The notes beneath the pieces are model-generated. The model saw nothing but the letters and a program-made list of their open reading frames with translations, was not told the DNA's origin and ran no database searches. A program made the translations under genes and the position numbers. Shown one piece after another: positions 9,521-58,940 of a stretch of 64,000 bases of DNA. Numbering within the stretch: the stretch's first letter is position 1; each line of letters opens with the position of its first letter. The stretch is from Rheinheimera aquimaris (GTDB lineage Bacteria > Pseudomonadota > Gammaproteobacteria > Enterobacterales > Alteromonadaceae): NCBI RefSeq assembly GCF_020531985.1, contig NZ_JAJAVQ010000005.1, forward strand, positions 124,001 to 188,000, read 5' to 3'.

Positions 9521-9523
9521 GCG

Positions 9524-27866: not shown

Positions 27867-28758
27867 GCAGCCTTGTCTCCTGCTCTGCCCGTGCCAGTTG
27901 TTGGCGGGCATAATAAACCGCGCCTACCGTTGCCGGTGCCAGCGGCGACGTAAAGCTGCTGCGCTGTGCCGCTGGCAGGTACGTCAGTAAACGCTGGCCC
28001 ACTCCACCAAGCAGGCAACAACGCCCTACTGGCAACTGCCGCTTCAGCGTGGCGATAAAATCTAACGCCTGTTGCAACATATCCAGCGCTACCGCATCAC
28101 CGCTGTCGGCAGCCTGAAACACCAAGGGTGCCAGCTCAGCATATTGCTGTGGCGTAGCCTGCAGTAGTTGCTCAGCCATCAGCGCCGCACCACCGTCAAA
28201 GTGTTGTTGTAGTAAGCCGCTTAAACGGGTTGCAGGCGCCAGGCCGTCAAGCGCCAGCAACACGGCCTGCACCGCTTGCAAGCCCAAGCCGGCACCGCTA
28301 CAAACCGCATTGATTGGAAAGCCATAGCCACCCAGCAGGGTTTCATCCTGCCCAGTCAGCCCGATAGCACTAAAACCGGTGCCAAGAATAATGACACTAC
28401 CTGCCCCACCACCATGGGCGCCGTAACAGGCAGCATGTAAGTCGGTGGTAACATGCCAGCTGGCAAAGGGGTGCTGCCACTGTAACGCAGTGGCTTTTAA
28501 CACTGCCAGATGCGCCCCGGCGAAACCTGCGCCGACATGCAAACGCCCGTAAGCATTGCTGTCCAGCCCGGTCTGCTGCAAAGCGGCATTCAGCGCCTGC
28601 CAAACATTTGCTTCAACCCGTGGCCACCCCAACCCCAGGTTTGCCGCGCCGGAGTGGCCTTCTCCAAGCAATTTACCACTTTCATCTTCCAGCCTTACCC
28701 GGCAATGACTGCCGCCGGCATCAATACCGGCAAACAGCGCAGCACTTTCACTTAACAT
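27853..28758 (-). CDS. BadF/BcrA-type amino-sugar kinase, probable GlcNAc kinase (first copy)
   Basis: ASKHA-fold ATP-dependent kinase of 301 residues in the BadF/BadG/BcrA/BcrD family, which includes eukaryotic-type N-acetylglucosamine kinases. Motifs are GIDAGGSHCRVRL (phosphate 1), TDLHAACYGA, VIILGTGFSAIG (phosphate 2), GGYGFPINAVCSGAGLGLQAV and the adenosine-loop CCLLGGVGQ. It likely phosphorylates GlcNAc released by glycosylasparaginase. It overlaps cutC by 14 bp. The discoidin lipoprotein gene lies upstream behind a hairpin, so this trio may have its own promoter or rely on read-through. A second, diverged BadF kinase is at 45029. Confidence 0.88.
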   Translation of the reverse strand: MLSESAALFAGIDAGGSHCRVRLEDESGKLLGEGHSGAANLGLGWPRVEANVWQALNAALQQTGLDSNAYGRLHVGAGFAGAHLAVLKATALQWQHPFASWHVTTDLHAACYGAHGGGAGSVIILGTGFSAIGLTGQDETLLGGYGFPINAVCSGAGLGLQAVQAVLLALDGLAPATRLSGLLQQHFDGGAALMAEQLLQATPQQYAELAPLVFQAADSGDAVALDMLQQALDFIATLKRQLPVGRCCLLGGVGQRLLTYLPAAQRSSFTSPLAPATVGAVYYARQQLARAEQETRLHGAN

Positions 28759-28780: not shown

Positions 28781-28806
28781 AAAGGCGCAGCATAAGCTGC
28801 GCCTTT
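28781..28806 (-). terminator. Terminator after the discoidin lipoprotein gene
   Basis: Perfect 11-bp stem AAAGGCGCAGC/GCTGCGCCTTT with a 4-nt loop, 22 bp past the discoidin gene stop and 22 bp before the kinase start. On the minus strand it ends in CCTTTTCTG, a short T-run. Confidence 0.75.
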
Positions 28807-28828: not shown

Positions 28829-30571
28829 TTAAAGCACGGGCCCAATCAGCTCAAACTCTGCTACCTGCATTAAACTGTTATCACCTTTGTTTTTGGTGAT
28901 TTCAATGCGGTAATGGCTGAAACTGCGGCCATTAAGTAGGCTGAAGCTGCGCCGCTCAGCCCGCGCAGCAAAGCTTTCACCAGCCCAGTCGCCCAGCTGT
29001 TGCCAGCTTTCACCATCGTTTGAACCAAGCAACCGGAAGTTCTCCGGATCGCGTTCCGGCGCGTCGTTAGCACTGGTGATGGCAAAGGTATTCACAATTA
29101 CCGGCTGCGGTAAACTGATTTCCAGCCAGGAGGGCGCCTCAACCGAGGGCACGCCGCTGTTATCCAGCCATTTGGTTGCCGGGTTATTGTCAAATGCCAT
29201 AGTACCGGCTTCGCCATCACTTATTGCGGCGCGCTCTGTTACCCCGGCTGCAGCATTATCACTGTGATCCTGCGCTTGAACCTGCGGGCCTATCAGCTCA
29301 ATTTCAGCCACCTGCATTAAGCTGTTATCACCTTTGTTTTTGCTGATATTCAGCCGGTAATGGTGATAGCCCAGTGCATTGGCAACCGCAAACGTTTGCC
29401 GCTCGGCACGCTCGCTAAAACTGATACCGGCCCACTGCCCCAGGCTAACCCAGTATTCGCCGTCATTCGATGCCAACAGGCTGAAGTTTTCCGGATCCCG
29501 CTCTGGTGCATCGTTAGCGCTAACCAGCCCCAGCATATTTACGGCCTGCGGCTCTGCCAGTACAACGGCAGCCCAGGCTGGTGCATCAGCTGTTGGCACG
29601 GCGGTATTGTCCAGCCATTTGGTTTGGCTATTGCCGTCAAACGCATAGTCAGCTGCTTCAGCATCACTGATAGCGCCGCTTGACGTTACCTCTGTTGCTG
29701 TTAACGCGTGATTCAACGCCGGTACTGCCGGGCCGATAAGCTCAATTTCAGCAATTTGCATTAAGCTGTTATCACCTTTGTTCTTTGTGATATTCAGCCG
29801 GTAATACAGGTACGCCAGACTATTATTAGTGCTGAATAACCGGCGCTGGCCGCGGCTGTCAAAGCTCTCGCCGGCCCATTCGCCCAACGTCAGCCAGCTC
29901 ACACCGTCATTCGATGCCTGCAGGTTAAAGTTTTCCGGATCGCGTTCCGGTGCGTCATTGGCGCTACTGATCGCCAGGCTGCTAACGGCTTTGGCGTCGC
30001 TAAACTGAATTTGCACCCAGGAAGGCTGTTCTGCCGTTGGCACTGCGGTGTTGTCCAGCCACTTTGTGCTGAGCAAGCCATCAAAGGCCATTTCAGCACG
30101 CTCTGCATCACCGATTGCACCACGGGCGCTAATGCTGCCGCCTTGCTGGATCTGGTCCGGATAAACCGGGCCAAACAGCTGTATTTCGGCCAGTTGCATT
30201 AAGTTGGTATCACCTTTGTTTTTGGTGATATTTAGCCGGTAATAGCGATACGGCAGGCTGTTATTAAAGGCAAAATCCTGCGCCGTAAAGCGACCTTCAA
30301 AGCTGACACCGGCCCATTGCCCCAGCGTCAACCAACTTTCCCCATCATTAGAAGCCTGCAGGTTGAAGTTTTCCGGGTCGCGGTCTGGCGCATCATTAGC
30401 ACTGGTGATCGATAGCACGCTGACAGCTTGCGCCTCGGCAAACTGCAGTGTTAACCAGGCGGGTGCTTCGGCACTTGGCACAGCGGTGTTATCCAGCCAT
30501 TTCGTCTCGGCGTTGCCGTCAAAGGCCTGCTCACCGCTTTCGCTGTCGCTGATAGCGCCGCGATAGCTTAT
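28829..30571 (-). repeat. Four tandem ~420-430 bp discoidin-coding repeats
   Basis: The 3' 1.74 kb of the lipoprotein gene consists of four in-frame units that each encode the same discoidin landmarks (TKWLDN, DAPERDPENF or close variants, KNKGD). The last two copies are closest to one another at the ends. Units of this length and similarity are prone to recombination and assembly collapse. Confidence 0.8.
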
Positions 30572-31558
30572 TTGCGCACCAGCCAGATAGGCCGCCGCGG
30601 TGTATTCACGAATAGGCCCGCTACTGTTATCTGCCACCACCAGTGGCAGTTCAATATCAATAATGCTATCCGGGGTTAATCCCAACTGTGCCAGTACCGG
30701 GTGGCCCTGCAATGCATCAAGCAACTGCTGGCGCAAAACAGTGGCGGCTGTTTCATCGCCCTCTGCCGCCAGCGCCACCTGCGCCGCTGCAGCAGCAAAA
30801 CTGTCAGCCAGCGTTGCATCAGCATCAATGTGAGCGAAGGCCGCATTAACAAAAGACAGCCTTATCAGCTGGTTACTGCTTTGAGCAAAGTTTTCCGCGT
30901 TATCAGCACTTTGCAGCGGTTGTTGCATCAAATTAATGGCCGGCATGTCAACACCGAGAATACGCAGCAGCTGAGCAGAGTATTCCAGCTGTGCCGGTTC
31001 CAGCGTCGCCAAAGCAGATACGTTGCGCCCACCGGCAATTGCTGCTTCCAGTAACTGGCTGGCAAAGGTGGTCAGGGCATTTACCTGCACAGTAGCTTCT
31101 GCTGTGCCATCGGCAGCAGCGCCAAGCGGTGCTTTTAACCAGAACAGGTTAGTTAATGTCACCGCGCCCAGCGCGTCTGCGTTTACTTCCCCGCCCAAAG
31201 CTGTGTCTCCGCACAGACTGAGATCACACAACATAAGGCTGTCAGCGTTAGAAGTAACAGCGAGTTTATGCACTGCGCTAAAAGCATAACCCGGTGCAGA
31301 AGTCAGCGTTAACGACGCTTTGCCACTGCTGTCGGTTTGAATTGCAGTACTGTTTACCTCGGTGCCGTTTAACGCACTGACACTGACAGCCGCGCCGGTT
31401 AAAATGCCTTTTACTGCACTGGTATCAATCTCTGCAGAGGTTGATACCGGTGCCGGTGCATCATTTGCATCTGGCGTGTCGCCACTATCGCAGCCGGTTA
31501 ACAGTGCCAAAGCCGCAGTCATCGCACACAGCAGCTGACGTTTTTGTATTGTTTTCAT
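28829..31558 (-). CDS. Surface lipoprotein with four discoidin (F5/8 type C-like) domains
   Basis: A 909-residue lipoprotein (lipobox LTGC, Cys23). Residues about 45-320 are Ala-rich and include a carboxypeptidase-regulatory-like start (KGILTGAAVSVSALNGTEV). Then four near-identical ~140-residue discoidin modules follow at about 330-465, 475-610, 618-755 and 768-909. Each has AFDGN..TKWLDN, SANDAPERDPENF, SNDGESW and KNKGDNSLMQVAEIELIGP. These folds bind carbohydrates or cell surfaces, so this may be the surface glycan-binding partner of the TonB-dependent receptor encoded 29 bp upstream. It contains no enzymatic motif. The repeats are strongly similar also in DNA, so the number of copies may vary between strains. 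Confidence 0.88.
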   Translation of the reverse strand: MKTIQKRQLLCAMTAALALLTGCDSGDTPDANDAPAPVSTSAEIDTSAVKGILTGAAVSVSALNGTEVNSTAIQTDSSGKASLTLTSAPGYAFSAVHKLAVTSNADSLMLCDLSLCGDTALGGEVNADALGAVTLTNLFWLKAPLGAAADGTAEATVQVNALTTFASQLLEAAIAGGRNVSALATLEPAQLEYSAQLLRILGVDMPAINLMQQPLQSADNAENFAQSSNQLIRLSFVNAAFAHIDADATLADSFAAAAAQVALAAEGDETAATVLRQQLLDALQGHPVLAQLGLTPDSIIDIELPLVVADNSSGPIREYTAAAYLAGAQISYRGAISDSESGEQAFDGNAETKWLDNTAVPSAEAPAWLTLQFAEAQAVSVLSITSANDAPDRDPENFNLQASNDGESWLTLGQWAGVSFEGRFTAQDFAFNNSLPYRYYRLNITKNKGDTNLMQLAEIQLFGPVYPDQIQQGGSISARGAIGDAERAEMAFDGLLSTKWLDNTAVPTAEQPSWVQIQFSDAKAVSSLAISSANDAPERDPENFNLQASNDGVSWLTLGEWAGESFDSRGQRRLFSTNNSLAYLYYRLNITKNKGDNSLMQIAEIELIGPAVPALNHALTATEVTSSGAISDAEAADYAFDGNSQTKWLDNTAVPTADAPAWAAVVLAEPQAVNMLGLVSANDAPERDPENFSLLASNDGEYWVSLGQWAGISFSERAERQTFAVANALGYHHYRLNISKNKGDNSLMQVAEIELIGPQVQAQDHSDNAAAGVTERAAISDGEAGTMAFDNNPATKWLDNSGVPSVEAPSWLEISLPQPVIVNTFAITSANDAPERDPENFRLLGSNDGESWQQLGDWAGESFAARAERRSFSLLNGRSFSHYRIEITKNKGDNSLMQVAEFELIGPVL

Positions 31559-31587: not shown

Positions 31588-34515
31588 TCAGAAGTTAAAC
31601 GTGATACCTGCGTAGTAGCGCCGGCCAGAGTAGCTGTTGTTTAAAAAACGTGCATCGGTATCGTTACCTAACCTCGATGTTGATTCAGATTTGGTCAGGT
31701 TGATAACCGATGCCGTGAGCAACCACCGCTCTGTCAGGGCAAAGGAAGCATTGACATCTATCTGGTCGTAAGGGTCCTGATACACGTTTAAACCGCTGTT
31801 AATGCCCAGCACTGTTTCGCCACGTTTGTTGTAAGACGCACGGATGCTGTAATCATCTGTCTCGTAAAATGCAGACAGGTTGTACTGGTACTTAGCACTG
31901 CCTACCAGCGGCGACTCGCCGAATTTCTCGCCATCGACGTTCACATCTGCCTGATTCGTTTTGTTGTAGGTGTAGTTGGCATTTATGCCAAAGCCATTAT
32001 CAAACGCATGCTGGATAAACAACTCAACCCCCTGCGACTTGGCATTAGAGCCATTACCAACAGTGCTGTAAGGGCTGATAGTGATCTGCCCCGGCTCCAC
32101 TACGCCTGGCTCACCGGCAAAATCGCGTACCGAGTCAATCACCAGTGGCACCACGAAGTTATCTACATCTTTGTAAAACAGTGCCATGCCCACTGCCGAG
32201 CCGGTGCCGTAGTAATATTCTATCGACAAGTCAGCCTGCATCGATTCAAACGGTTTCAGGTTTTTATTACCGCCGCTGCCGCTAAAACCGGGTTGGGTGT
32301 TAAAAGCGGCACGGTCATCTGCCCACTCGTCTGAAACAAAACTAATACGCTCCTGGCTCCCCAAATCGCTGTAACCCGGCGGCGACATCACTTTTGCCAA
32401 TGCACCGCGCACCACCAGATTTTCGCTGGCGTCCCACACCAGATTCAGGCTGGGTAACACATAGGTTTCTTCACTGGTTTGCGATATCAGCTGCCAGTTT
32501 TCAACAAAACGGGCATCGCCGGTAACAGGTAAACCGGTTACATCGTCGGTGTGATCAAGGAAATAGGTGTATAAATCGGTCGATTCGCCGGTGGTTTTGG
32601 TTTTGACTATCCGCACACCGGTATTACCGCGAAAGTCGCCGAAGCTGAAATCACCCTGCAGGTAAAAGGCCTGGCCTTTTTCGCGGATATTGTAGACAAA
32701 ATTGTCTTCAATCCGGGTATAAGGTTTGTAGTTGCTTAATATAATGTCGCGGTACTTATCCCAGTCGACAACCGGCATCAGGTTAATGTCAAAGCCTCCG
32801 GCAATATTGCCTTCGCCCTCTGGCTTTAATACATCTCTTGCCAGCGGCATACCGCCGTTCCATTGATAACTGTCAAACTGATCGATGCCACGGCCGCTGG
32901 CCAACGCACCTTCGATATCAAAATCCGGTGCCAGAAAGAAGTTATTACCGGTTTCGCGGTGTAACTTGGCATCACGGAATTTTAAACCGCTGCGGATCAG
33001 CGTGAAAATGCCCCATTCGACATCAAAATCGACATCCAGCTGATAGTAGCGCTCTTCCAGCGTGCTGCGCACAAAGCTGGAGTTTGATGAGCCCGGATCA
33101 CGCCCACCGCCAACACCGTTTAGCAAATTGGTCAGGGTGTTAGGGTCCATATACATTGACATACGATCCCCAAGCGACCAGCCTGCATATTGCGCCGCAT
33201 TCTCAATGAAGGGCTGGTTTTCGCCCCAGTTGGAGCTTTTATACGCGACATCCCAGCTTTCGGTCGGCCCACCTTTTGCTTCCGTGTTGCCGGCAACCAG
33301 TTTCAGCCGGTAGCTGTCACCTTCATAGCTGAAGTTAAAATCGAAGGTATCAGAGGTTGATTCCTCGCGCACATAACTGCCGTTCATCCAGGGAAACTGC
33401 AGGTCATTTTCGGCACCGCCGGCGCCGACGGTATAATCCATGCCGGTGATAATGGTACCTGAAGCATCCAGCGTAACGCCGGTCAGAAAATTAGGGTTTA
33501 ATGACCACTCAGGCATCGACACCACTGAACGGGTTCTGTCCTGGCCCAAGGTAAAACCAAAGTAGTTAAACCCCAGCTCTATGCGGTCGGTGGGGCGCCA
33601 CTGGCCGGTAAGCTGCAAACCTTCACGCTCGCGCTCTTCCTTGGTAACACCAACGCGCGCTACCTGTGGAAACCAAACACCATTGTAAACATTACCCTGA
33701 GCATCGGTCAGTGCAGCCCAGTTATTGTTGTTGTCTACCGGGTTGCCATTCACATCAACAGCAGCGTCAGCCACGCCGCTCCAGCGCCAGACATTTGAAT
33801 CTGTGCCACCTGCCAACACGCGGCTGGTGCGGTTTTGCCGGGTATACCCCACCAATAACCCCAGGCTCTCAGCGTCGTTTTTCCAGGAATATACGCCGGT
33901 AAACTGTGGCTCATGTTTGTCGGTAACATCAGCATAAGTTGATTCAATATTCAGTACACCGGAATTGGCGTCCATATCGAACGGTTTACGGGTATGCAGC
34001 AATACCGTACCGCCGACCCCACCAGCGTCCAGCCTGGCTTCGGGCGATTTAAACACTTCAACGGTCTGGATCATCGCCGACGGCAGCAAGGTGTAATCAA
34101 AGGAACGTGACGGCTCGCCGGGTGACGATGCAATAAAGTTACCGTTTAACTGGGTAAAGGTCAGATCGGACGATAAGCCGCGGATACTGACTGTTGAGCC
34201 CTCACCACCATCGCGCTGGATCACAACCCCTGGTACCCGCTGCAGTGAATCAGCCACGTTTTTATCCGGAAACTTACCGATATCCTCAGCGGTAATCGCA
34301 TCAACCACCGCACTGGATAACCGTTTTATCGCCATATTCTCGGCCATACTGGCCCGGATCCCCCGGACCTGTACTACCTCAATTTCAGCTTCGGCTTTGG
34401 TTTCTGCCGCGGGCTCAGCTTCCTGCGCTAATGCCAGGTTGCTGCCGGCGGTTAACAGCAGGCTAAGGCTTACCGCCTGCGCTAACCTGTGTTTGCGCAG
34501 CCTGACCGGCTGCAT
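31588..34515 (-). CDS. TonB-dependent receptor (carbohydrate type) of the amino-sugar region
   Basis: Outer-membrane beta-barrel transporter of about 975 residues, energised by TonB. The signal peptide (QAVSLSLLLTAGSNLALAQ) is followed by an acidic stretch and a TonB-box-like VVQVRGIRAS. The plug has FPDKNVADSLQRVPGVVIQRDGGEGSTVSIRGL-type sequence and the C-terminus ends in a barrel strand with terminal Phe (YYAGITFNF). It belongs to the Xanthomonas/Caulobacter class used for oligosaccharides. I prefer the ATG at 34515, which has GGGGA at seven bases; an in-frame ATG at 34554 adds 13 residues. It precedes the discoidin lipoprotein gene by 29 bp and likely forms a capture pair with it. Confidence 0.93.
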   Translation of the reverse strand: MQPVRLRKHRLAQAVSLSLLLTAGSNLALAQEAEPAAETKAEAEIEVVQVRGIRASMAENMAIKRLSSAVVDAITAEDIGKFPDKNVADSLQRVPGVVIQRDGGEGSTVSIRGLSSDLTFTQLNGNFIASSPGEPSRSFDYTLLPSAMIQTVEVFKSPEARLDAGGVGGTVLLHTRKPFDMDANSGVLNIESTYADVTDKHEPQFTGVYSWKNDAESLGLLVGYTRQNRTSRVLAGGTDSNVWRWSGVADAAVDVNGNPVDNNNNWAALTDAQGNVYNGVWFPQVARVGVTKEEREREGLQLTGQWRPTDRIELGFNYFGFTLGQDRTRSVVSMPEWSLNPNFLTGVTLDASGTIITGMDYTVGAGGAENDLQFPWMNGSYVREESTSDTFDFNFSYEGDSYRLKLVAGNTEAKGGPTESWDVAYKSSNWGENQPFIENAAQYAGWSLGDRMSMYMDPNTLTNLLNGVGGGRDPGSSNSSFVRSTLEERYYQLDVDFDVEWGIFTLIRSGLKFRDAKLHRETGNNFFLAPDFDIEGALASGRGIDQFDSYQWNGGMPLARDVLKPEGEGNIAGGFDINLMPVVDWDKYRDIILSNYKPYTRIEDNFVYNIREKGQAFYLQGDFSFGDFRGNTGVRIVKTKTTGESTDLYTYFLDHTDDVTGLPVTGDARFVENWQLISQTSEETYVLPSLNLVWDASENLVVRGALAKVMSPPGYSDLGSQERISFVSDEWADDRAAFNTQPGFSGSGGNKNLKPFESMQADLSIEYYYGTGSAVGMALFYKDVDNFVVPLVIDSVRDFAGEPGVVEPGQITISPYSTVGNGSNAKSQGVELFIQHAFDNGFGINANYTYNKTNQADVNVDGEKFGESPLVGSAKYQYNLSAFYETDDYSIRASYNKRGETVLGINSGLNVYQDPYDQIDVNASFALTERWLLTASVINLTKSESTSRLGNDTDARFLNNSYSGRRYYAGITFNF

Positions 34516-34688
34516 GGTATTCCCCGTTTTGTTGTACCCTTTTTTACTGTACATAGTGTGTTGCTCTCATTTTTTCTAGTTTTAACTATTGTTCTGAGCA
34601 ATGAGTTTCTCTTACTGCCTAAACGCAATCAGAACCCTGTCTTCTATCACTTGTGTCAGATTGAGTAGCCCTCTGATGAGGGCCTGGT

Positions 34689-35348
34689 TTAACTTTTTAG
34701 TTTCAGCTTGCGCAGCACCTCATCAGATGGGCCGTCAAAACTGGGCATGGGTTTATTGCCGATATAGCCGATGTCGGCCATACCGGGTTCTGTGGTGTAG
34801 AACGCGGTAGCCGTTAAGTCGCGCACTTTGGCAAAAAAGCGCGCGCCGTGTTTTAAGTGGGCGGCTGCTTTAGGTTCAAAACAGATGTCGTCACAAATTT
34901 GTTTCTGTTGGTCGGTACTTAGCTTTGCAAAGGCTTTGTCAAACCGCTTTTTTGCTTCGGCGTTTAGCCAGACCAAGCCGCCACGCACCAACACCAAATC
35001 TGCTTTCTGCTGCGGGTAAGGTGCACTGACCCATTCATTGATAAAGTGCTGGGCACCAAGACTGGCAGCTGAAGGCGACTGCGCATCAGCCGGAATAATA
35101 ATGTCAGCCAGCACCGCTAAATCATCCAGCTCGGCCTGGGTCAGCGTCATCGACCAGGGCACAATTGGCTTTAACATGTCAGGATCGGTCGGCCGGTAAA
35201 TCAGTTCGGCGCCTTTGGTTTTCGCTGTTACCGCAGCAGCATGGCTTGCCATGCTCATTACCGGCATAGCGACAGCCGCCGTTGCCAGCAACTTTAATGC
35301 ATCACGGCGTTTAACATTAGTGATCTGGGTTTGCTTGTCGTGTGCCAT
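34689..35348 (-). CDS. Gluconate 2-dehydrogenase subunit 3-type small subunit, Tat-exported
   Basis: Small subunit of FAD-dependent GMC sugar dehydrogenases, 219 residues. It carries the only export signal of the pair: a twin-arginine signal (VKRRDALKLLATAAVAMP...ASHAAA). The body has LDDLAVLADIIIPAD and FINEWVSAPYPQQKADL-type segments typical of the family, plus a C-terminal PKAAAHLKHG/FFAKVRDLT region. The ATG at 35348 lies 1 bp after the GMC gene stop, with AGGA upstream. By analogy with glucoside 3-dehydrogenases, the large subunit should be co-exported bound to this one. No cytochrome c subunit gene is adjacent. Confidence 0.9.
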   Translation of the reverse strand: MAHDKQTQITNVKRRDALKLLATAAVAMPVMSMASHAAAVTAKTKGAELIYRPTDPDMLKPIVPWSMTLTQAELDDLAVLADIIIPADAQSPSAASLGAQHFINEWVSAPYPQQKADLVLVRGGLVWLNAEAKKRFDKAFAKLSTDQQKQICDDICFEPKAAAHLKHGARFFAKVRDLTATAFYTTEPGMADIGYIGNKPMPSFDGPSDEVLRKLKLKS

Positions 35349-35349
35349 G

Positions 35350-37146
35350 TTAAATATTCCTTTGCTTGAACTGCTCAACAATGTAATCACTGGTGCGCCA
35401 GGCCAGCGCCAGAATAGTCAGGGTGGGGTTTTTATCGGCGTTTGACGCGAAAGGCGCACCGTCCGCCACAAACAGGTTGGGCACATCCCAGGTCTGGCAG
35501 TGCTGGTTCAGCACCGATTTTCTGCGGTCAGCGCCCATAATAGTGCCGCCGACTTCATGAATAATGGAGCCGCCGCTGGCAATAGCTTTACGACCATCGG
35601 TTTCGATATTGCTGGTTACCTTGCCACCCATACCGGTAATAATGTCGGCAAAGGTTTTTTGCATATGCGCGGCCTGATTGATCTCATGCTCTGACCACTG
35701 CCAGTGAAATTTCAGTACCGGTATCCCCCACTGGTCGACGACCGTCGGATCCAGTTCCGCATAGCTGTTTTCATTCGGTATCATTTCACCGCGGCCAGCA
35801 AAGTGAACAAAGGTGCCGTAATAACGCCGACACGCCTGTTTAAAGTCGGCGCCGTAGGCGCCCTCAGTAAAGCTCTGCAGCCCACCAAAAGCACCTGCGC
35901 CCGGCATGCCCCGGCCACCGCTCATTTCAATATGATAGCCCCGGGCAAAATTCAGCTTGCCTGCCTTTTGTTGTTTGTATAGCCACCACGGCTGATACAA
36001 ATGCATACCAGACGCACCGTCCTCGTTCATCGGAGGCAGGTTTTCCAGCGCCGGGATCTGCCCACTGACGCCTGCGCCAACCGTATCCATCAGGTATTTG
36101 CCAACCAGACCGGAACTGTTGGCGATACCGTCGGGGAATAGCGGGCTGCGTGAATTAAGAAAAATCCGCGCCGTTTCAGCTGCACTGGCCGCGACAACGA
36201 CGGCACGACCTTTTACTTTCACTTCCTGACGGCTGTTTTTATCGATATAAATGACGCCGTCAGCCTTACCGGCTTTGTTCAGCGTCACTTCGCGAACCAT
36301 GGCATCAGTGATAATGGTCAGATTACCAGTGGCCAGTGCCGGTGGAATTAACACCGTGGTCGACTGAAAATTGGCTTTAATCGAACAGCCCCGGCCACAA
36401 GGCGTCGCCCAAAAACAGGCGGCGCGGGATTGCATCGAATCAGCAACTACTTTTTGCCCCAATGCGCTGTTTGGAAACAATTTTGCAGGCAAGCGGGTGT
36501 GATCCTGGCGCTGACTTAAAATGGCAAGGTGCGCCGGGATCACCGGAATATTCAGCTCGTCACAGGATTTCTTTGCCAGCAGCTCATAAGCGCGCGGTTT
36601 GGGCGCCGGTTGTAAAATGCCCTCTGGCGAATCCGGTGTGTTTTCCAGGCCATGACCGGTTTCACCGTATACACCAATTAACATTTCAGTTTTATCGTAA
36701 TAAGGCGCTAAGTCGGCATAGCTTATCGGCCAGTCAAGCCCCAACCCATCGCGGCTGTAGGGTTTAAAATCATACTCGCCGTTGCGCAGTGAAATACGGC
36801 CCCAGTGGTTGGTACGCCCGCCGAGCATGCGGGCGCGCCACCAGTCAAAACGCTGCTGTGGATCACGGCTGGCCTGAGTATAAGGCTCACCCGGGACTTG
36901 CCAGCCGCCGTCAATGGTAGCGTCATAAAAACCGAAGGGTTTATCCGGCGTGCTGGCGCCACGCAGCGGCGCTTCTTTTGGCAGATTAAACATCGGCGTT
37001 TCTGTTACCGGGTCGTAATGACGGCCGGCCTCTAACATCAACACCTTTAAACCGGCAATACTGAGTATCAATGCCGACATACCACCACCGGCCCCTGAGC
37101 CGACCACTATTACATCATATTCCTGTTGTCCGGACGGTCCTGACAT
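35350..37146 (-). CDS. GMC-family FAD dehydrogenase, glucoside-3-dehydrogenase-like large subunit
   Basis: FAD-dependent GMC oxidoreductase of 598 residues. It has the Rossmann loop VVGSGAGGG near residue 13, MLGGRTNHWGRISLR with a flavin-contact role, FWATPCGRGCSIKANF with cysteines, and a C-terminal region with GGTIMGADRR and NADKNPTLTILAL, where the catalytic His/Asn pair lies. It has no signal peptide, so export probably depends on the Tat signal of the adjacent small subunit. Close relatives oxidise the C3 hydroxyl of glycosides to 3-keto sugars. The neighbouring isomerase-like and DUF1080 proteins are the partners expected for 3-keto-glycoside processing. It has its own upstream region with a LacI-type palindrome. 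The in vivo substrate is unknown. Confidence 0.9.
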   Translation of the reverse strand: MSGPSGQQEYDVIVVGSGAGGGMSALILSIAGLKVLMLEAGRHYDPVTETPMFNLPKEAPLRGASTPDKPFGFYDATIDGGWQVPGEPYTQASRDPQQRFDWWRARMLGGRTNHWGRISLRNGEYDFKPYSRDGLGLDWPISYADLAPYYDKTEMLIGVYGETGHGLENTPDSPEGILQPAPKPRAYELLAKKSCDELNIPVIPAHLAILSQRQDHTRLPAKLFPNSALGQKVVADSMQSRAACFWATPCGRGCSIKANFQSTTVLIPPALATGNLTIITDAMVREVTLNKAGKADGVIYIDKNSRQEVKVKGRAVVVAASAAETARIFLNSRSPLFPDGIANSSGLVGKYLMDTVGAGVSGQIPALENLPPMNEDGASGMHLYQPWWLYKQQKAGKLNFARGYHIEMSGGRGMPGAGAFGGLQSFTEGAYGADFKQACRRYYGTFVHFAGRGEMIPNENSYAELDPTVVDQWGIPVLKFHWQWSEHEINQAAHMQKTFADIITGMGGKVTSNIETDGRKAIASGGSIIHEVGGTIMGADRRKSVLNQHCQTWDVPNLFVADGAPFASNADKNPTLTILALAWRTSDYIVEQFKQRNI

Positions 37147-37225
37147 CTTGCGCTCTCCTCATCTGCACACTTTGCAGTAATGTGCCTTGTTATAATATTT
37201 TTATCGGTGCGGTATTTTGCCTGCT

Positions 37226-37250
37226 CCGGTTACACATGTAACCGGTTACA
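37226..37250. promoter_or_regulatory. LacI-type operator upstream of the GMC gene
   Basis: Perfect 14-bp palindrome TGTAACCGGTTACA at 37237-37250, with an extra half-site CCGGTTACA at 37226-37234. It lies 91-104 bp upstream of the GMC start, in the 140-bp gap after the isomerase gene. It has the central CG and symmetry of LacI/GalR-family operators, and a near copy lies at 39040-39053. The LacI-family gene is 1.9 kb away. Confidence 0.8.
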
Positions 37251-37286
37251 CGCAAAACCCAAAAATACCGGACGTTCAGGGTCGCC

Positions 37287-38189
37287 TTAACGTCCGGCAT
37301 GGCTGGCGACAGCCAGCAATAAATCTCTGGTAGCCCGGATACCGGCATCTTCGTCAGCATTCTGACCTTCGTACTCGATACCGATATAGCCCTGATAGCC
37401 TGATACCTGGATCAGCTGCCACATGCGTCGATAATCAATGCTGGTTTCAGCACCTGAGGCATCAAACGCATAACTCTTTGCGCTGACCCCTTTGGCATAA
37501 GGCAGCAGCAACTGCATGCCCTGATATTTGTCACCACTAAAATTACCAAAATCCGGCAAACTGCCCGCATTCCCAGCCTGCTGCAGCACTGTCGCCAGCC
37601 AGCTAGCGTGCATCGAGTGCCCCATATGGTTCTCGACGATGATGCTGATGCCAAAAGGCTTGGCAAAAGCGGCCAGTTGCTGCAAACCTTGCACAGCAGC
37701 CTGCTGCATTTTTTCAGCATCCGTTGTGGCGTGATCGGCGATGCTGACGCGGATAGCGTGACAGCCTAAAAAGGCGGCTGCTTCGACCCACTTATAATGA
37801 TTTTCTACCGCCTGTTGCCGCTGCTTTTGGTCTATCGCAGCCAGATCACCTTCAGCATCGACCATAATCAGCAGACTGCGGACACCGCTGTCATCGGCGC
37901 GCTGCTTTAACTGGCGCAGAAACGGCTGATCCTTTGCTTTGTCGGCAAAAAACTGATTTACATATTCAACCGCGCCAAGTTGAAAATCGCGCCGGGTTTT
38001 TACTGCAAAATCCAGCACCTTAAGCTGCCCGGCGCGCAGTTGCCGGTGCAAAGACCACTGCGCCAGTGAGATCTTCGGCTCAGATGACTCAGATGCCAGC
38101 AGTTGCCAGCTAAGCGGCAGCTGGCAAGTCAGGCCGGCTGCGGCGGCAAGGCGTAAAAATTGGCGGCGTTTAATGTCAGTAGAATACAT
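37287..38189 (-). CDS. Tat-exported AP-endonuclease-2-type sugar isomerase/lyase-like protein
   Basis: TIM-barrel protein of 300 residues in the xylose-isomerase-like / AP-endonuclease-family-2 group. A twin-arginine signal (KRRQFLRLAAAAG) sends it to the periplasm, which is unusual for true sugar-phosphate isomerases. Barrel metal-site segments include GAVEYVNQFF, the acidic end IIVENHMGHSMHASW, SLPDFGNF and IGIEYEGQNADED. Periplasmic members of this group associate with DUF1080 and 3-dehydrogenases, where they act on 3-keto-glycosides by epimerisation or elimination. The gene follows DUF1080 by 12 bp, so they form one transcript. Confidence 0.85.
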   Translation of the reverse strand: MYSTDIKRRQFLRLAAAAGLTCQLPLSWQLLASESSEPKISLAQWSLHRQLRAGQLKVLDFAVKTRRDFQLGAVEYVNQFFADKAKDQPFLRQLKQRADDSGVRSLLIMVDAEGDLAAIDQKQRQQAVENHYKWVEAAAFLGCHAIRVSIADHATTDAEKMQQAAVQGLQQLAAFAKPFGISIIVENHMGHSMHASWLATVLQQAGNAGSLPDFGNFSGDKYQGMQLLLPYAKGVSAKSYAFDASGAETSIDYRRMWQLIQVSGYQGYIGIEYEGQNADEDAGIRATRDLLLAVASHAGR

Positions 38190-38201
38190 AGCGGGTCCCT
38201 G

Positions 38202-38948
38202 TTATAGCGCTCGGATACGGATCTGGCGAAACGCAATTCTGTCGCCATGATCCTGCAACATGATATGTCCGGGTTCATCGGCTCCCAATACATGTTCGGG
38301 AGCAAACTTGCTTTGTGCCGCCCGCTTTTGCCAGTCAGCAGAGCCTAATTCAAACTGCAGTACCAGCTTGCCATTAAGCCAATGCTCGACATGCGGGTAG
38401 CGCACGACAATGCGTGTATTGTTCCAGCTGCCGGCAGGTAAATGGGCGTCAAGCTCAGGCGGGTAAATATCAAATAATGCGGCAGTAAAATGAATAGGAT
38501 TATCGTGACCTGGGTAGTTATCATTATCCAGCAACTGGTACTCTAAACCGCCTGAACGTACCCTGCTGTCAGGTCCGGCAACTTTATAAAAGATACCGCT
38601 GTTGCCCGAAGCAGCGATTTGCCAGTCCAACTCCAGCTCAAAATCGGTAAAACTCTGTTTACTGACAATGGCACCACCGCCAGCTGCGGTTAGCACAAGA
38701 GCATTATCAATTATTTGCCATTGCTGACCAATTTCATTGCCATTGCTGTCAGTCCAGCTGTTGGTAGACTCGCCATTAAACAGCCACTGCCAGTCATCTG
38801 CAGGTTCTGCCTGAACTTCAGCACTAGTGGTCACAGTCGGTATAGCTACAGTATTGGTTGCGACGGGTTTACAGCCTGCCATCACAGCAAGCAGCAATAA
38901 GCTCTGCGCAGCGACACGTGAAGCGGCGCCTGAGTTAACTCTGTTCAC
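38202..38948 (-). CDS. DUF1080 (3-keto-glycoside hydrolase/hydratase-like) lipoprotein
   Basis: Concanavalin-fold lipoprotein of 248 residues (lipobox MAGC, Cys26). DUF1080 marks are WQWLFNGESTNSWTDSNG, LTAAGGGAIVSKQSFTDFELELDWQI, SGNSGIFYKVAG, YPGHDNP, and the end GHIMLQDHGDRIAFRQIRIR. Characterised DUF1080 proteins act on 3-keto-glycosides. It is first in the transcript with the isomerase-like gene and has an operator-like palindrome 92-105 bp upstream. Its role would be to finish cleavage of glycosides oxidised by the GMC enzyme in the periplasm; this is inferred from family and context. Confidence 0.88.
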   Translation of the reverse strand: MNRVNSGAASRVAAQSLLLLAVMAGCKPVATNTVAIPTVTTSAEVQAEPADDWQWLFNGESTNSWTDSNGNEIGQQWQIIDNALVLTAAGGGAIVSKQSFTDFELELDWQIAASGNSGIFYKVAGPDSRVRSGGLEYQLLDNDNYPGHDNPIHFTAALFDIYPPELDAHLPAGSWNNTRIVVRYPHVEHWLNGKLVLQFELGSADWQKRAAQSKFAPEHVLGADEPGHIMLQDHGDRIAFRQIRIRAL

Positions 38949-39039: not shown

Positions 39040-39053
39040 TGAAACCGGTTACA
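39040..39053. promoter_or_regulatory. LacI-type operator upstream of the DUF1080 gene
   Basis: TGAAACCGGTTACA, which differs at one base from the perfect palindrome at 37237-37250. It lies in the 150-bp gap between the LacI gene and the DUF1080 gene, 92-105 bp upstream of the latter's start. Confidence 0.7.
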
Positions 39054-39098: not shown

Positions 39099-40112
39099 TT
39101 ATTTTTTATCCGTGATTATTGCCGTGCTGTCACGCACCACCAGCCGGTATGACAGCATCATATGCTGCTGGGCCAAAGGCTCGCCTCTCATCAGTTGATA
39201 CAGTGCGCGCATCGCCTGCCGGCCTAACTGTTCTGCGGGTTGATCGATAGTCGTCAGGCTGGGCTCGGTGAAGGCAGCAAACTCAATATTGTCAAAACCT
39301 GCTATCGCAATATCCTGCGGCACACGCAGCCCATGCTGTCGCAGACAACGCATAGCGCCAATGGCCATTTCATCATTCATGCAAAAAATAGCCTGCGCCC
39401 GTTCTGGCTGCTGCAGTAAACGCTGTGCGGCATCGTGGCCCGATTGCATGCTGAAATCCCCTTCCACCACAGCATTAGCCGCTAATGTTAAGCCCGCACC
39501 GAGCAGCGCATCTTTCATGCCTGCCAAACGGTCACGCACTATGGGGCTATGCGCCGGCCCGGTAATCACTGCCAGCCTTTTCAGGTTTAGATCAAGCAAA
39601 TGCTGTGTCAGGGCGCGGGCCGCGCCGCGGTTATCCAACTCGACCACCGGATAACCGGCGGGTTCATCGATGCGCTCACAGGCATTAACAAAAGGCACTG
39701 TCGCCGCCAGCTTGCGATCTTCCTCGGAAAACGGATAACGGCTATCAAGTTGAATTAAGCCATCCGCCTGGCTGGTCAGGCCCATGCGGGCATATTCCTG
39801 CTCACGACTGACGCTGCCCTGAGTATCCCCCAGCAATACTGCATAGCCACAGGCCTGGGCTTCCTGCTCAATGCCGCGGATCACACGGGAAAAAAAGGGG
39901 TTAGCGACATTAGGCACCAGCACCACCACAGCATAAGCCTTGCCTGAGCTGAAATTACGTGCCAGCTGATTTGGCCGGTAACCGGCACTTTGCACTGCCT
40001 GCATCACGCGTTGCCGGGTGTCAGGCGATACCAGCTCCGGGTTTTTCAGTGTGCGCGATACCGTTGCGGTAGATACGCCGGCGAGTTTGGAAACAATCCT
40101 GATGGTGCTCAT
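39099..40112 (-). CDS. LacI-family transcriptional regulator of the oxidative glycoside module
   Basis: A 337-residue regulator with an N-terminal LacI helix-turn-helix (IRIVSKLAGVSTATVSRTLK, followed by the hinge region GYRPNQLARNFSSG) and a type I periplasmic-binding-like effector domain (about 60-330). It resembles the CytR/PurR subgroup. Operator-like palindromes with a central CCGG lie upstream of the adjacent DUF1080 gene and of the GMC gene, and are its most likely targets. The gene runs in the same direction as those. Its own promoter region (40113-40213) has no such site, so autoregulation is not obvious. The effector is unknown, perhaps a glycoside or 3-keto sugar. Confidence 0.9.
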   Translation of the reverse strand: MSTIRIVSKLAGVSTATVSRTLKNPELVSPDTRQRVMQAVQSAGYRPNQLARNFSSGKAYAVVVLVPNVANPFFSRVIRGIEQEAQACGYAVLLGDTQGSVSREQEYARMGLTSQADGLIQLDSRYPFSEEDRKLAATVPFVNACERIDEPAGYPVVELDNRGAARALTQHLLDLNLKRLAVITGPAHSPIVRDRLAGMKDALLGAGLTLAANAVVEGDFSMQSGHDAAQRLLQQPERAQAIFCMNDEMAIGAMRCLRQHGLRVPQDIAIAGFDNIEFAAFTEPSLTTIDQPAEQLGRQAMRALYQLMRGEPLAQQHMMLSYRLVVRDSTAIITDKK

Positions 40113-40213: not shown

Positions 40214-41407
40214 TCATACCTTTAAGAAAATGCCACGCTTGTAACACCAATGCATCAGCAGATACGACAGCAGTAAAAAGCTGATGGCAAAGGCCAGTGA
40301 ACCGTTATAGTTGCCAAAAGCCGGCTGATACAGGTTACTGAACAACCAGCTTTGCAGCGAGATATCGCCTACCGGGATCATGCCGAGCAAACGGGCGGCA
40401 ATACCGGCAAACATAAAAAATAAAATGGCATTGGCACCGAATACCACAAAAGGTGCGCTCCATAAGCGGTATTTTTTGATATCGCACAGCCACAGGCAGG
40501 CGGCCAGCGCAATAGCACAATATCCGCTGCTTAGCAGTACAAAGCTCGGCGTCCATAAACTTTTATTAATCGGCAATGAAAAATGCCACAGTTCTGCCAG
40601 CCATACTGCGACCACGCCACACAGCAACAAACCACGGGCTTTTTGCACCAGTGTGCGCTGCGCTTGCAACCACTGCGCTATCAGTAAACCACTGACACAG
40701 CTGGCGATGGCCGGCAGTGTTGACCACAGGCCTTCCGGATCAAACGCAAAGGGCGTGGCGGTGCGGTAATACACATGCTGCGCACCCAGTACAGTATGAT
40801 CAAGCCAAGCAGCAAAGCTGTTGCCAAACTCCAGTAAACCAACAAACTGCTGGCCGTATGCGTCCTGGTACGGTAAATACCACATTCCGGCCAGATACAG
40901 CGCACACAACATTAACATAGCAATAATGCGGCCGCGCGTAGCACAGTACAGCGCTATTAACATGGTAAAAAAGTACACCAGCGCAATGCGTTGCAATACT
41001 CCCAACGCCCGCACTGCCATCAGTTTCTGCTCGATGTAATTGTAGGAAGGGTCGCGGAAATTATAGTAAAACAGCACCAAAAACAGCCCCAGCAGGTACA
41101 GCTTAACCGAACGCAGTAAAGCGTGTTTTAACAATGCAGCTTTTGTGGCTGTCTGCTGTCGCTGCAGACTAAGTTGCAGTGACATACCAACAATGACAAT
41201 AAAAAACGGAAAAATCAGGTCGGTAAAGGTCCAGCCGTGCCATTTGGCATGCAACAGCGGGCTGTAAACGTAGCTCCAGCTACCGGGGTTATTAACCAGG
41301 ATCATCGCGGTAATGGTCAGGCCGCGCAGCACATCAAGCGCAAGCATGCGGTTAGCCGGTACCGCGGATAAAATAGCCTGGCAATGCTGCCGGATAGCTG
41401 CCAGCAT
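40214..41407 (-). CDS. NagX-like / HGSNAT-type (DUF5009) membrane protein
   Basis: Multi-span inner-membrane protein of 397 residues related to NagX and to the heparan-alpha-glucosaminide acetyltransferase family. The N-terminal region RMLALDVLRGLTITAMILVNNPGSW and TFTDLIFPFFIVIVGMSL is diagnostic, followed by about ten hydrophobic segments. NagX-like genes recur in chitin and GlcNAc gene clusters, but the function (transport or acyl transfer) is not settled. The start codon shares one base with the GH3 stop (TGATG), so the two are translationally coupled. Confidence 0.9.
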   Translation of the reverse strand: MLAAIRQHCQAILSAVPANRMLALDVLRGLTITAMILVNNPGSWSYVYSPLLHAKWHGWTFTDLIFPFFIVIVGMSLQLSLQRQQTATKAALLKHALLRSVKLYLLGLFLVLFYYNFRDPSYNYIEQKLMAVRALGVLQRIALVYFFTMLIALYCATRGRIIAMLMLCALYLAGMWYLPYQDAYGQQFVGLLEFGNSFAAWLDHTVLGAQHVYYRTATPFAFDPEGLWSTLPAIASCVSGLLIAQWLQAQRTLVQKARGLLLCGVVAVWLAELWHFSLPINKSLWTPSFVLLSSGYCAIALAACLWLCDIKKYRLWSAPFVVFGANAILFFMFAGIAARLLGMIPVGDISLQSWLFSNLYQPAFGNYNGSLAFAISFLLLSYLLMHWCYKRGIFLKV

Positions 41408-43287
41408 CAGTTCGCGGCCTGCGATACGGTTACCGGCAAAGTACCGGTTAAACTGTATTGGCCAAGTAGCGCCTGCGCAATCGCTTCATAGGTCGCATTG
41501 CCGGCATTTATTGCTGTGGCATCTTCTGCGGTGTTATAGGCGTAGCTGGCCAGCACGATATCTGCATAGTTGCCATAGCGGCTAATATCGTAAGGCGCAC
41601 GCAGGCTTAAAAAGACATGCGGCTTTTTCCGCGCTTTAATTTGCGGCAGTAAGGTTTCATACTGCAGCGTCTGCCTCTCATATGCCGCCGCTATGTTAGC
41701 AACACCGGTTAAGTCATCCATACCGCCAATATCGGCCAGGCTTTGCATTGGTGCGATAAAGCCACTAATCACCACATCCGCTGCAGCAATTTTAGCGCCA
41801 GCGTCGGTTAAATCGGTTTGCTGCAGGCTTATCGTGTCTATCGAAAAATGCTGTTTGCTGTAATGCTGCAAGGCCGCCGACAATGCTTTCGCTTTAGTCT
41901 GATCCGGCATCACCAGTAACAGTTTCTTTGTTTCGGTAAGTTTAAACGGTAAGTAACCTGCGGCGGGTTTTACCTGTGTCAGAGCCGCTTTGGCCAGTGC
42001 CAACTCGGCTTGGCGGTGCTTTGCATTGCCAAGTGCCTGCTGTGCTTTTTTAATTTGCTGTGCAGGTGTTTTTTCAGTTGGCAGCAATGGATACTGCTGT
42101 TTAAGCGCAACAATGCGCTGGTAAGACTGTTCCAGTTCAGTTTGATCAAGCGCACCGGATTGCACTGCGCTCTCCAGCGCAGTCAGCAGCTCTGACAGAG
42201 CCTGCAACTCGCCCGGATGCTGCAGCTTAACTGGCATCAGTGCAATGTCGGCACCGGCAGCAAAGGTTTGTACTACGGCTTCAGTGTGACTAAAAAACTT
42301 GCTGATACCCGCCATGTCCAACGCATCTGTTACGATAACGCCGTTATAGCCCATATCTTCGCGCAATACGCCGTGCAGAATTTTGCGTGACAGCGTAGCC
42401 GGTTTTAGCATGCTCTCACCGTCTTTGGAGACAAAGGTGCTGTTATCCAGTGCCGGGTATTGAATATGCGCTGTCATGATCATACCGGGATTATGCTGCT
42501 TTATTATGTTGGCAAATGGCAGTAAATCGACTTTACGGATTTGCTCAATGCTATGCTCTACCCGCGGCAGGCCCAGATGGCTGTCTACCTCGGTATCACC
42601 ATGGCCCGGAAAGTGTTTCAGTGCGGCTATCATGCCACGCTGCTGCATCGCCGCAGTCATGGCCCCTCCCAGGTCAGCCACCATGGCGGGATCTTCACCA
42701 AAAGCACGCACATTAATTACCGGGTTTTGCGGGTTAACGTTAACATCAATGGTCGGGGCAAAATTCAGGTTTATACCCAGCGGCAGCAGTTCATCGGCCA
42801 GTACCCGGCCCACTTCAGTGGCGAAGGCTGTGCCGAAAGCACTATAAGTTGCACCAATCGCCATATTGCCGGCAAAAGAGGTTGCCAGACTGCGTGGCAA
42901 GCGGGCGACCCGGCCACCTTCCTGATCAATGCTGATAAACAGTGGTAGTTTCAAAGCCGACGCCGCCGCTGCGGTTTGCATGTCACGGTTTAACTGCACA
43001 ATTTGTGCGACATCCTGCAAATTCTCCGCAAACAGAATAACGCCGCCGATATCGTAGTCGCGGATAAGGTTCGCCAGTTCAACCGGCAGTTTAGTCATCG
43101 CTGTGCGGCACTGGCCATTAACCGGCGCTTCTTCACAGTAATAGCGCAGGTCAAGCATCAATTTCTGCCCCAGCATCTGTTTAACGCTGGCTTTAGGCAC
43201 GTTGCTATCAGCAGCCATAGCTAACGCCGGTAAGGTGAAACTGCAGAGACTGAGTAACAGCAGTGAAGCGCGGTTTAAGCATGACAT
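41407..43287 (-). CDS. Secreted GH3 beta-N-acetylhexosaminidase (two-domain NagZ type)
   Basis: Exported exo-beta-N-acetylglucosaminidase of about 626 residues. After a Sec signal (ASLLLLSLCSFTLPALAMA), the GH3 barrel contains ISIDQEGGRVARLP, the NagZ dyad motif KHFPGHGDTEVDSHLGLP (Asp/His acid-base) and nucleophile Asp in VIVTDALDMAG. Residues about 400-620 form a second alpha/beta domain, as in B. subtilis NagZ and unlike the one-domain ~340-residue E. coli enzyme. I chose the ATG at 43287, with AGGA at six bases. Export implies action on external or periplasmic murein or chitin fragments rather than cytosolic recycling. It is divergent from the SSS transporter gene. Confidence 0.9.
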   Translation of the reverse strand: MSCLNRASLLLLSLCSFTLPALAMAADSNVPKASVKQMLGQKLMLDLRYYCEEAPVNGQCRTAMTKLPVELANLIRDYDIGGVILFAENLQDVAQIVQLNRDMQTAAAASALKLPLFISIDQEGGRVARLPRSLATSFAGNMAIGATYSAFGTAFATEVGRVLADELLPLGINLNFAPTIDVNVNPQNPVINVRAFGEDPAMVADLGGAMTAAMQQRGMIAALKHFPGHGDTEVDSHLGLPRVEHSIEQIRKVDLLPFANIIKQHNPGMIMTAHIQYPALDNSTFVSKDGESMLKPATLSRKILHGVLREDMGYNGVIVTDALDMAGISKFFSHTEAVVQTFAAGADIALMPVKLQHPGELQALSELLTALESAVQSGALDQTELEQSYQRIVALKQQYPLLPTEKTPAQQIKKAQQALGNAKHRQAELALAKAALTQVKPAAGYLPFKLTETKKLLLVMPDQTKAKALSAALQHYSKQHFSIDTISLQQTDLTDAGAKIAAADVVISGFIAPMQSLADIGGMDDLTGVANIAAAYERQTLQYETLLPQIKARKKPHVFLSLRAPYDISRYGNYADIVLASYAYNTAEDATAINAGNATYEAIAQALLGQYSLTGTLPVTVSQAAN

Positions 43288-43368
43288 AGCATTCCTGAAA
43301 GTGAGAACCATCACGGCGGTATCCTGTTATTGTGTCGAAAGCAGGATGCAGTACAACAAAAATAATTT

Positions 43369-45024: not shown

Positions 45025-45028
45025 CAAT

Positions 45029-57899: not shown

Positions 57900-57903
57900 A
57901 ATA

Positions 57904-58914: not shown

Positions 58915-58940
58915 CCGGTTTTATTACAGCAGCGCGGATG

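Follow-up and report, generated by a model that had tools for sequence, protein, structure and literature searches.

In Agrobacterium, glycosides pass through oxidation, elimination, hydration and reduction; the accessible part of the report describes a GlycDH-Gfo-AtOGE-AtHYD operon with a dehydrogenase, a Gfo oxidoreductase and two isomerase-like proteins, one an eliminase and the other a probable hydratase (PMC10628242). For Caulobacter, the accessible sections describe a periplasmic dehydrogenase of three components, LacABC, and the DUF1080 protein CCNA_01705 with a putative signal peptide, which are together proposed to act on lactose (PMC9007349). Lactobacillus casei, as far as the available text goes, uses asparagine-linked N-acetylglucosamine (GlcNAc-Asn) capped by fucose by means of the alpha-L-fucosidase AlfC, the glycosylasparaginase AsnA2 and the kinase SugK (PMC6960285). 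Here, we analyze a stretch of 64,000 nucleotides from Rheinheimera aquimaris (contig NZ_JAJAVQ010000005.1, positions 124,001 to 188,000), in the following called the window, and within it a quartet of genes for the small subunit of a GMC dehydrogenase, the GMC dehydrogenase itself, a TIM barrel with a twin-arginine translocation (Tat) signal, and a DUF1080 lipoprotein. We propose, at about an even chance, that the quartet is a LacI-controlled 3-keto-glycoside module serving the salvage of glycosylasparagines and N-glycan remnants, where it would uncap GlcNAc-Asn for glycosylasparaginase (AGA).

A check of the open reading frames (ORFs) of the window recovered the four genes, all on the minus strand:

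34689..35387, minus strand: GMC small subunit, Gluconate_2-dh3 family, with a Tat-like signal (Pfam; motif by eye)
35353..37146, minus strand: GMC dehydrogenase dependent on flavin adenine dinucleotide (FAD), catalytic pair His530/Asn573, no signal peptide seen (Pfam, alignment)
37290..38189, minus strand: Tat-exported TIM barrel, AP_endonuc_2 family, 4ovx subfamily (Pfam, structure matches)
38205..38948, minus strand: DUF1080 lipoprotein, PF06439, by its Pfam name a 3-keto-disaccharide hydrolase (Pfam)

Pfam matches were obtained for all four proteins: Gluconate_2-dh3 (E 2.4e-23) for the small subunit, GMC_oxred_C (1e-22) and GMC_oxred_N (4e-11) for the dehydrogenase, AP_endonuc_2, the xylose isomerase-like family (1.2e-18), for the TIM barrel, and 3keto-disac_hyd (4.3e-46) for the DUF1080 protein. 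NCBIfam names none of the four above a cut-off. The small subunit, whose true start is probably the ATG at about 35348, has no solved homologue at E 0.1; for comparison, a PF13618 match was also found in the Caulobacter control genome. Export signals were read by eye from the sequence, without a predictor. The small subunit carries the twin-arginine-like motif RRDALKLL; a loose pattern finds such a motif in all 78 homologues, and a stricter RR pattern, applied to the first 110 residues, in 74 of them. The TIM barrel shows RRQFLRL, with the RR pair invariant in all 14 aligned rows, and the DUF1080 protein a lipobox-like stretch, LLAVMAGC. A Tat-like motif on the small subunit and none on the dehydrogenase fit hitch-hiker export, as the initial annotation had suggested, and its view of the TIM barrel as Tat-exported and of the DUF1080 protein as a lipoprotein likewise agrees with the Pfam matches and the signals.

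The dehydrogenase is 96–98% identical to GMC proteins of Rheinheimera genomes. Its best solved relatives are FAD glucose and fructose dehydrogenases, the closest being 6a2u, in which a His and an Asn align with the catalytic positions. HEVG and DKNPT occur in 79 of 80 GMC homologues, and the remaining one has HELG and DKNPT; the catalytic residues of a 3-keto-pathway dehydrogenase are intact. The DUF1080 protein matches 13 distinct solved sequences, mostly putative glycosyl hydrolases by name. Its solved homologues include 8tda and 8rr2, and one match is named '3-keto-disaccharide hydrolase domain-containing protein'. By family, it is a candidate enzyme for cleaving a 3-keto-glycoside. A DUF1080 enzyme of the same family belongs to the Bacteroides BT2156-2160-type 3-keto pathway, which reportedly uses Gfo/Idh/MocA dehydrogenases, not GMC enzymes. 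His234 of the window protein is kept in 33 of 33 aligned rows (rows below 80 bits were left unaligned), and we take it to be the counterpart of H275 in a Bacteroides protein that is presumably a DUF1080 enzyme as well. According to the accessible part of that report, the H275N variant of the Bacteroides 3-keto-O-glycoside lyase is deficient in hydration (PMC13273386). The DUF1080 protein of the window may perform the elimination.

The later steps of such a route are represented in relatives. Between NagX and DUF1080, eight homologous loci (L003-L010; six Rheinheimera and two gammaproteobacterial metagenome-assembled genomes) contain a carrier of the major facilitator superfamily (MFS), a Gfo/Idh/MocA enzyme and a second TIM barrel (Pfam on L003). 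By Pfam, the carrier is of the nucleoside:H+ symporter type, and the second TIM barrel matches 8ro4, a '2-hydroxy-3-keto-glucal hydratase', with E 3.4e-158. The genome of the window (G000) encodes a second complete set on another contig, C10, composed of MFS carrier, TIM barrel, Gfo, LacI, DUF1080, GMC and small subunit. There, the MFS carrier (62%), TIM barrel (68%) and Gfo protein (53%) are identical to this extent to the L003 proteins, and LacI (53%), DUF1080 (34%), GMC (55%) and small subunit (38%) to L003 or window proteins; the hydratase-like TIM barrel again matches 8ro4 (E 8.6e-177). A hydratase and a Gfo reductase are thus available to the window genome as C10 paralogues. We assume GlycDH to be a GMC enzyme and 8ro4 to represent AtHYD.

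The extra genes of the relatives, together with the published Agrobacterium route, support the class of chemistry well: it is most likely the known sequence of oxidation, elimination, hydration and reduction, and oxidation at C3 is taken over from the Agrobacterium comparison. The periplasmic 3-keto-glycoside route of the initial annotation gains support from the protein families and from the 8ro4-type hydratase and Gfo gene of the relatives. Differences from the Agrobacterium operon concern the export signals on the first-step proteins of the window, the presence of DUF1080, a TIM barrel without the metal-binding His on strand beta-7, and the reductase and hydratase, which are missing from the window locus and have their paralogues on C10. 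The C10 set corresponds to L083 9521-17559, adjoins a mutS-like gene and lies near a recA-like gene (by eye). In 13 loci, including several from Opitutaceae, GMC likewise has a MutS-like gene (by eye) in its vicinity.

A short palindromic motif accompanies the oxidative genes of the window:

37237..37250: putative LacI operator TGTAACCGGTTACA, a perfect palindrome, upstream of GMC, between the TIM barrel gene and GMC
39040..39053: putative LacI operator TGAAACCGGTTACA, upstream of DUF1080
39102..40112, minus strand: LacI-family regulator, the probable regulator of the quartet

Across the 4.23 Mb genome, the motif TGNAACCGGTTNCA has exactly two occurrences, one ahead of DUF1080 and one ahead of GMC, and the reversed-motif control gave no match. 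In all eight loci L003-L010, four sites with at most one mismatch are located 18-120 bp before MFS, Gfo/Idh/MocA, DUF1080 and GMC, and G081, a genome of another genus, has its four sites at these genes as well. Each of the six Microbulbifer loci (L011-L016) contains an exact copy just before GMC and another before or near Gfo. The sites outline a regulon of oxidative genes to which a LacI-family protein would bind. Neither the TonB receptor gene downstream of the quartet nor the promoter region of GH3 and SSF has an operator of its own in the site scan; transcription of the receptor could continue from GMC. A NagR-like motif, TGACANCGNTGTCA, has nine window matches at up to two mismatches, none of them in the intergenic regions of the locus, and the LacI-family gene is therefore not taken to be NagR. 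Scans for sigma-70 promoters (15 against 14.9 in shuffles) and terminators (21 against 22.3) performed no better than shuffled sequence, so operon limits were not drawn from them.

Downstream of the small subunit, five genes on the same strand point to the salvage of amino sugars:

31591..34554, minus strand: TonB-dependent receptor (TonB-Xanth-Caul)
28829..31558, minus strand: 909-aa protein with four F5/8 type C (F5/8C) repeats and a lipoprotein-like start
27856..28758, minus strand: BadF-type kinase, best model NagK (N-acetylglucosamine kinase) with 250.9 bits, below the cut-off of 370
27117..27911, minus strand: CutC-family TIM barrel, below the CutC model cut-off
26138..27133, minus strand: glycosylasparaginase (AGA) with a Tat/lipoprotein-like signal (3ljq, E 7.1e-139)

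The AGA protein reaches 465.8 bits against 3ljq and 143.6 against the best isoaspartyl peptidase, and is thus closer to glycosylasparaginase. An inverted repeat at 28785-28802, between the F5/8C gene and the kinase, may be a terminator, though it is not among the results of the terminator scan. The F5/8C protein is kept together with the TonB receptor in L003-L010, G081, G045 and G137.

We compared 80 homologous GMC loci, 49 of which extend over at least 8 kb of downstream DNA and were used to count AGA genes at more than 45% identity; a hit in L067 (33%, opposite strand) was left out. Of the 12 loci that encode the Tat TIM barrel, 11 have AGA downstream; of the 37 that lack it, none does. The exception, L006, has GH85 and CutC before the stretch ends, and three further Tat-TIM loci (L011, L017, L018) were too short for the count. 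Among the 80 loci, the Tat TIM barrel is confined to this glycosylasparaginase-linked group, which forms a single clade of the GMC tree (18 rows, SH-aLRT 99) with one loss. In 16 genomes chosen from 147, a close AGA (at least 74%) occurs in G017, G063 and G081, whose GMC is 83–97% identical. G045 and G137 have an AGA copy of 60–61% on a contig separate from their 57% GMC, and the remaining 11 genomes have distant matches or none, a close AGA being absent from G097, G126, G146 and G042.

The AGA copies of G045 and G137 (L150, L151) lie with receptor, F5/8C, kinase, CutC and LacI-family genes, all of which the window shares, and with GH85, GH92 and a GH2 mannosidase (Pfam on G045 proteins, family searches in both). 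We read these as N-glycan loci. The window receptor is 52% and 68% identical to their receptors, and GH85 also lies within the quartet loci of L006 and G081. With moderate confidence, the sequence comparison links the quartet to glycosylasparagines rather than to murein. The locus also resembles alf-2 of L. casei, in which AGA and a kinase serve a capped GlcNAc-Asn; the accessible text describes an ordinary alpha-fucosidase, AlfC, for that system, and an oxidative route is proposed here instead (PMC6960285). In Microbulbifer donghaiensis, L014 19365-21645 contains a further DUF1080-like gene together with one for a Gfo/Idh/MocA protein exported by Tat (best solved match 8tdf); this pair is near AGA and CutC and has its own TGTAACCGGTTACA at 21632.

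Several observations weigh against a module for glycosylasparagine salvage. The window locus itself lacks MFS, Gfo and the hydratase-like TIM barrel, NagX and LacI being only 102 bp apart. In the site scan of the genome, the kinase-CutC-AGA genes are not preceded by an operator, and the scan thus gives no support for co-regulation with AGA. In L017 there is one site (before Gfo) and in L018 two (MFS and hydratase-like TIM), none of them at GMC or DUF1080, and five of the eight Rheinheimera-type loci (L003, L004, L005, L007, L009) keep the operators without a LacI gene in the stretch. In L016, the GMC set and a receptor occur without AGA, although among the Microbulbifer loci this is also the one that lacks the Tat TIM barrel. 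The AGA linkage rests on two main lineages of non-independent rows, those of Rheinheimera being nearly identical to one another. For the Microbulbifer receptor, identity is no higher than about 40%, and the N-glycan loci of G045 and G137 lack the quartet. In G000, finally, searches for GH85, GH92 and Mannosidase_ig came up empty, the latter two being the mannosidase families covered; whole N-glycans would not be trimmable by those enzymes, and in this respect G000 does not match a utilisation locus with endoglycosidase and mannosidases.

These points bear on the principal alternative, a general pathway for 3-keto-glucosides or disaccharides of the Caulobacter LacABC-DUF1080 or Agrobacterium GlycDH type, whose substrate has no amino sugar; we consider it possible, though tentative. 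It fits with operators that cover oxidative genes only and with the close homology of the relatives' hydratase to an enzyme named for 2-hydroxy-3-keto-glucal. The C10 set, moreover, combines LacI, DUF1080 and GMC without the amino-sugar genes of the window in the roughly 31 kb read, and the available sections on Caulobacter propose DUF1080 and LacABC for lactose (PMC9007349). However, the version with the Tat TIM barrel is linked to AGA in two lineages that differ in downstream gene order, the other 37 loci have no such link, and the receptor is common to N-glycan loci. The context of the window is glycosylasparagine, that of the Caulobacter system lactose.

The mechanism that we propose for glycosylasparagine salvage builds on computed gene families, operator sites, extra genes of relatives and AGA linkage, from which we infer every reaction, the binding of LacI and the substrate. 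The Tat signal of the small subunit would export the GMC complex, which would oxidise a glycoside, presumably at C3, and pass its electrons to a general respiratory carrier encoded elsewhere. DUF1080, perhaps with the Tat TIM barrel, would then cleave the glycosidic bond, now labile, through elimination and/or hydration. In relatives, the MFS carrier would import the keto product into the cell, where the 2-hydroxy-3-keto-glycal hydratase and the Gfo/Idh/MocA enzyme would yield an ordinary hexose; the window strain probably uses the paralogous C10 set for transport, hydration and reduction. Most likely, the module would remove a sugar capping GlcNAc-Asn and so let glycosylasparaginase act within a salvage locus of TonB receptor, F5/8C protein, GlcNAc-kinase-like gene, CutC, AGA and, in some relatives, GH85.

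The glucal-type hydratase of the relatives suggests a glycone with a 2-hydroxy group rather than GlcNAc. The most economical reading of the substrate is a neutral hexose or similar sugar on GlcNAc-Asn, which would be likelier than a GlcNAc glycone. That the route oxidises C3 of GlcNAc itself in GlcNAc glycosides, e.g., GlcNAc-Asn or chitobiose, which was part of the proposal in the initial annotation, appears quite improbable. Genes for GlcNAc use do flank the quartet on both sides, and GH109 enzymes, which carry out an oxidation-elimination dependent on nicotinamide adenine dinucleotide on an N-acetylamino sugar, provide a precedent. However, the relatives' hydratase groups with the 2-hydroxy-glucal enzyme and shares 68% identity with its C10 counterpart, which is not part of any amino-sugar locus in the stretch read, and AGA and GH3 would already split such bonds.

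A more specific form of the glycosylasparagine reading, which we regard as unlikely, holds that oxidation-elimination, in place of ordinary mannosidases, dismantles the core of N-glycan remnants ahead of AGA, with the 4ovx-type TIM barrel as a new dedicated enzyme. Since elimination erases the configuration at C2, the 3-keto forms of a mannoside and a glucoside would converge on one 2-hydroxy-3-keto-glucal, and if this reading is true, core mannose would be converted directly into glucose by the glucal-type hydratase and Gfo. In accordance with it, G000, G063 and G081 lack GH92 and Mannosidase_ig, and G045 and G137, which have both, lack the quartet at their N-glycan loci. Against it, G017 has one GH92, and G097, G126, G146 and G042 are without the quartet and yet without GH92 and Mannosidase_ig in a survey limited to these families.

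Among solved structures, the sequence of the Tat TIM barrel strongly matches 4ovx, a structural-genomics entry (E 1.7e-77), and weakly three others. Its predicted model (mean predicted local distance difference test score, pLDDT, 73.4) superimposes on 4ovx with Z 31.2 and a root-mean-square deviation (rmsd) of 2.0 over 256 aligned residues, on isomerases and epimerases with about Z 21-26, and on the 3-keto-glucoside 4-epimerase YcjR (21.5) and the C-glycoside-cleaving complexes CarB2-C2 (21.5) and DgpB-DgpC (20.9). The comparison scored the best 1000 chains ranked by Foldseek, so a family missing from the results is not thereby excluded. The modelled fold is of the sugar epimerase/eliminase kind and cannot separate these enzymes. 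In AtOGE, the accessible part of the report gives His132, Asp163, His189 and, weakly, Glu233 as metal ligands and His134 as used in the reaction (PMC10628242). With strands matched to AtOGE by sequence pattern and without superposition, the TIM barrel has invariant Glu186, Asp213 and Glu272 and keeps His188 in 13 of 14 aligned rows, but the beta-7 position of metal-binding His189 is Ser236 in all 14. Ser236 also aligns against a His of Art22, and the invariant Lys238 follows it; this SAK motif recurs beyond the alignment in L004, L007 and G081. With the beta-7 metal His replaced by Ser, we do not class the Tat TIM barrel with the Mn-dependent beta-eliminases of O- and C-glycosides (AtOGE, DgpB/C): of the 'isomerase-like lyase' in the initial annotation, the isomerase-like family stands and the lyase is unproven.

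The barrel is rare, being found in one of 369 genomes sampled from the class, that of the window (E 1e-20). Homologues were found in two plasmid records of PLSDB, whose gene tables are incomplete. In the Pontibacter plasmid, these tables list neither GMC nor AGA within 25 kb around the homologue, and a gene annotated as beta-mannosidase is located at ~6 kb; in the Haliscomenobacter plasmid, they place GMC at ~7 kb and Gfo at ~9 kb. Plasmid matches of the GMC protein itself (560 records) are all below 60% identity.

One component of LacABC is a cytochrome c, and its small subunit is of the Gluconate_2-dh3 kind with a Tat signal, a feature matched by the small subunit of the window. In contrast, a scan for CXXCH motifs revealed no partner cytochrome gene near the quartet, the sole such ORF of the window being one of 64 aa at 4850, nor in the 44 homologous loci that extend for 5 kb to either side. 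This was a motif scan, not a search with hidden Markov models; it returned long ORFs in L062 (709 aa) and L063 (699 aa) and small ones in L020, L022, L024, L062 and L077. Read by eye, only the 709-aa ORF of L062, on the opposite strand ~3 kb from GMC, has a stretch resembling a cytochrome domain, apparently fused to a pyrroloquinoline quinone (PQQ)-dehydrogenase-like protein. With none seen in 44 loci, the lack of an adjacent cytochrome gene, already pointed out for the window, looks like a trait of this GMC subfamily rather than a loss in one strain.

Upstream of LacI, the window continues with a block of murein genes:

40217..41407, minus strand: NagX-like glucosamine N-acetyltransferase (below model cut-off), without module operator
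41410..43314, minus strand: GH3 (NagZ-like)
43459..48031, plus strand: SSF transporter, BadF kinase, MurQ-like SIS protein, NamZ exo-muramidase

The quartet adjoins GH3, NagX, MurQ and NamZ here, and the adjacency of GH3 and NagX is common to L003-L010 as far as these loci reach. It was on such grounds that the quartet could be assigned to the recycling of murein or N-acetylmuramic acid (MurNAc), an assignment that we now hold to be highly improbable. The block GH3-NagX-SSF-kinase(BadF)-MurQ-NamZ is intact without the quartet in all three genomes of the same genus examined (L164-L166), and GH3, NagX and NamZ lie together in G042 of another genus (L167). Conversely, the 34 kb read from G081 combine the quartet with AGA and GH85 and are free of murein genes, the GH3 homologues of this genome being on other contigs, and Microbulbifer L011-L015 have the quartet and no murein genes in the stretch seen. 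The site scan found no LacI operator at the murein promoters, and C3 of MurNAc is occupied by the lactyl ether and thus cannot be oxidised. As block and quartet are separable and the operator is absent, their adjacency is best read as that of two neighbouring modules. The MurNAc or murein substrate of the initial annotation is therefore abandoned; its amino-sugar setting persists through the link to AGA, the GlcNAc-kinase-like gene, CutC and, in some relatives, GH85.

Elsewhere in the window, 51985-59429 encodes a sigma-70-type (extracytoplasmic function-like) factor, FecR and two TonB receptors with 65% mutual identity, which resembles a cell-surface signalling set. By eye, the translations of 433-10453 constitute a xylose/xylan locus with xylose isomerase, xylulokinase, an XylR-like regulator, GH43-like and GH115-like enzymes, and transaldolase.

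A combination of N-glycan or glycosylasparaginase functions with a 3-keto or GMC route was not found among the papers listed from the literature within reach of the search, which excluded most subscription papers. Glycosylasparagine salvage by the quartet would tie a non-hydrolytic glycoside route, itself recognised only recently, to glycoprotein remnants, whose use is otherwise described with hydrolases in the literature covered. With its candidate operator defined, the locus offers a small regulon that can be tested, and it singles out a rare exported TIM barrel that tracks AGA as well as a dehydrogenase subfamily with no partner cytochrome gene observed in its vicinity. Should the substrate be mannosyl or fucosyl GlcNAc-Asn, the module would represent a new way of using N-glycan cores.

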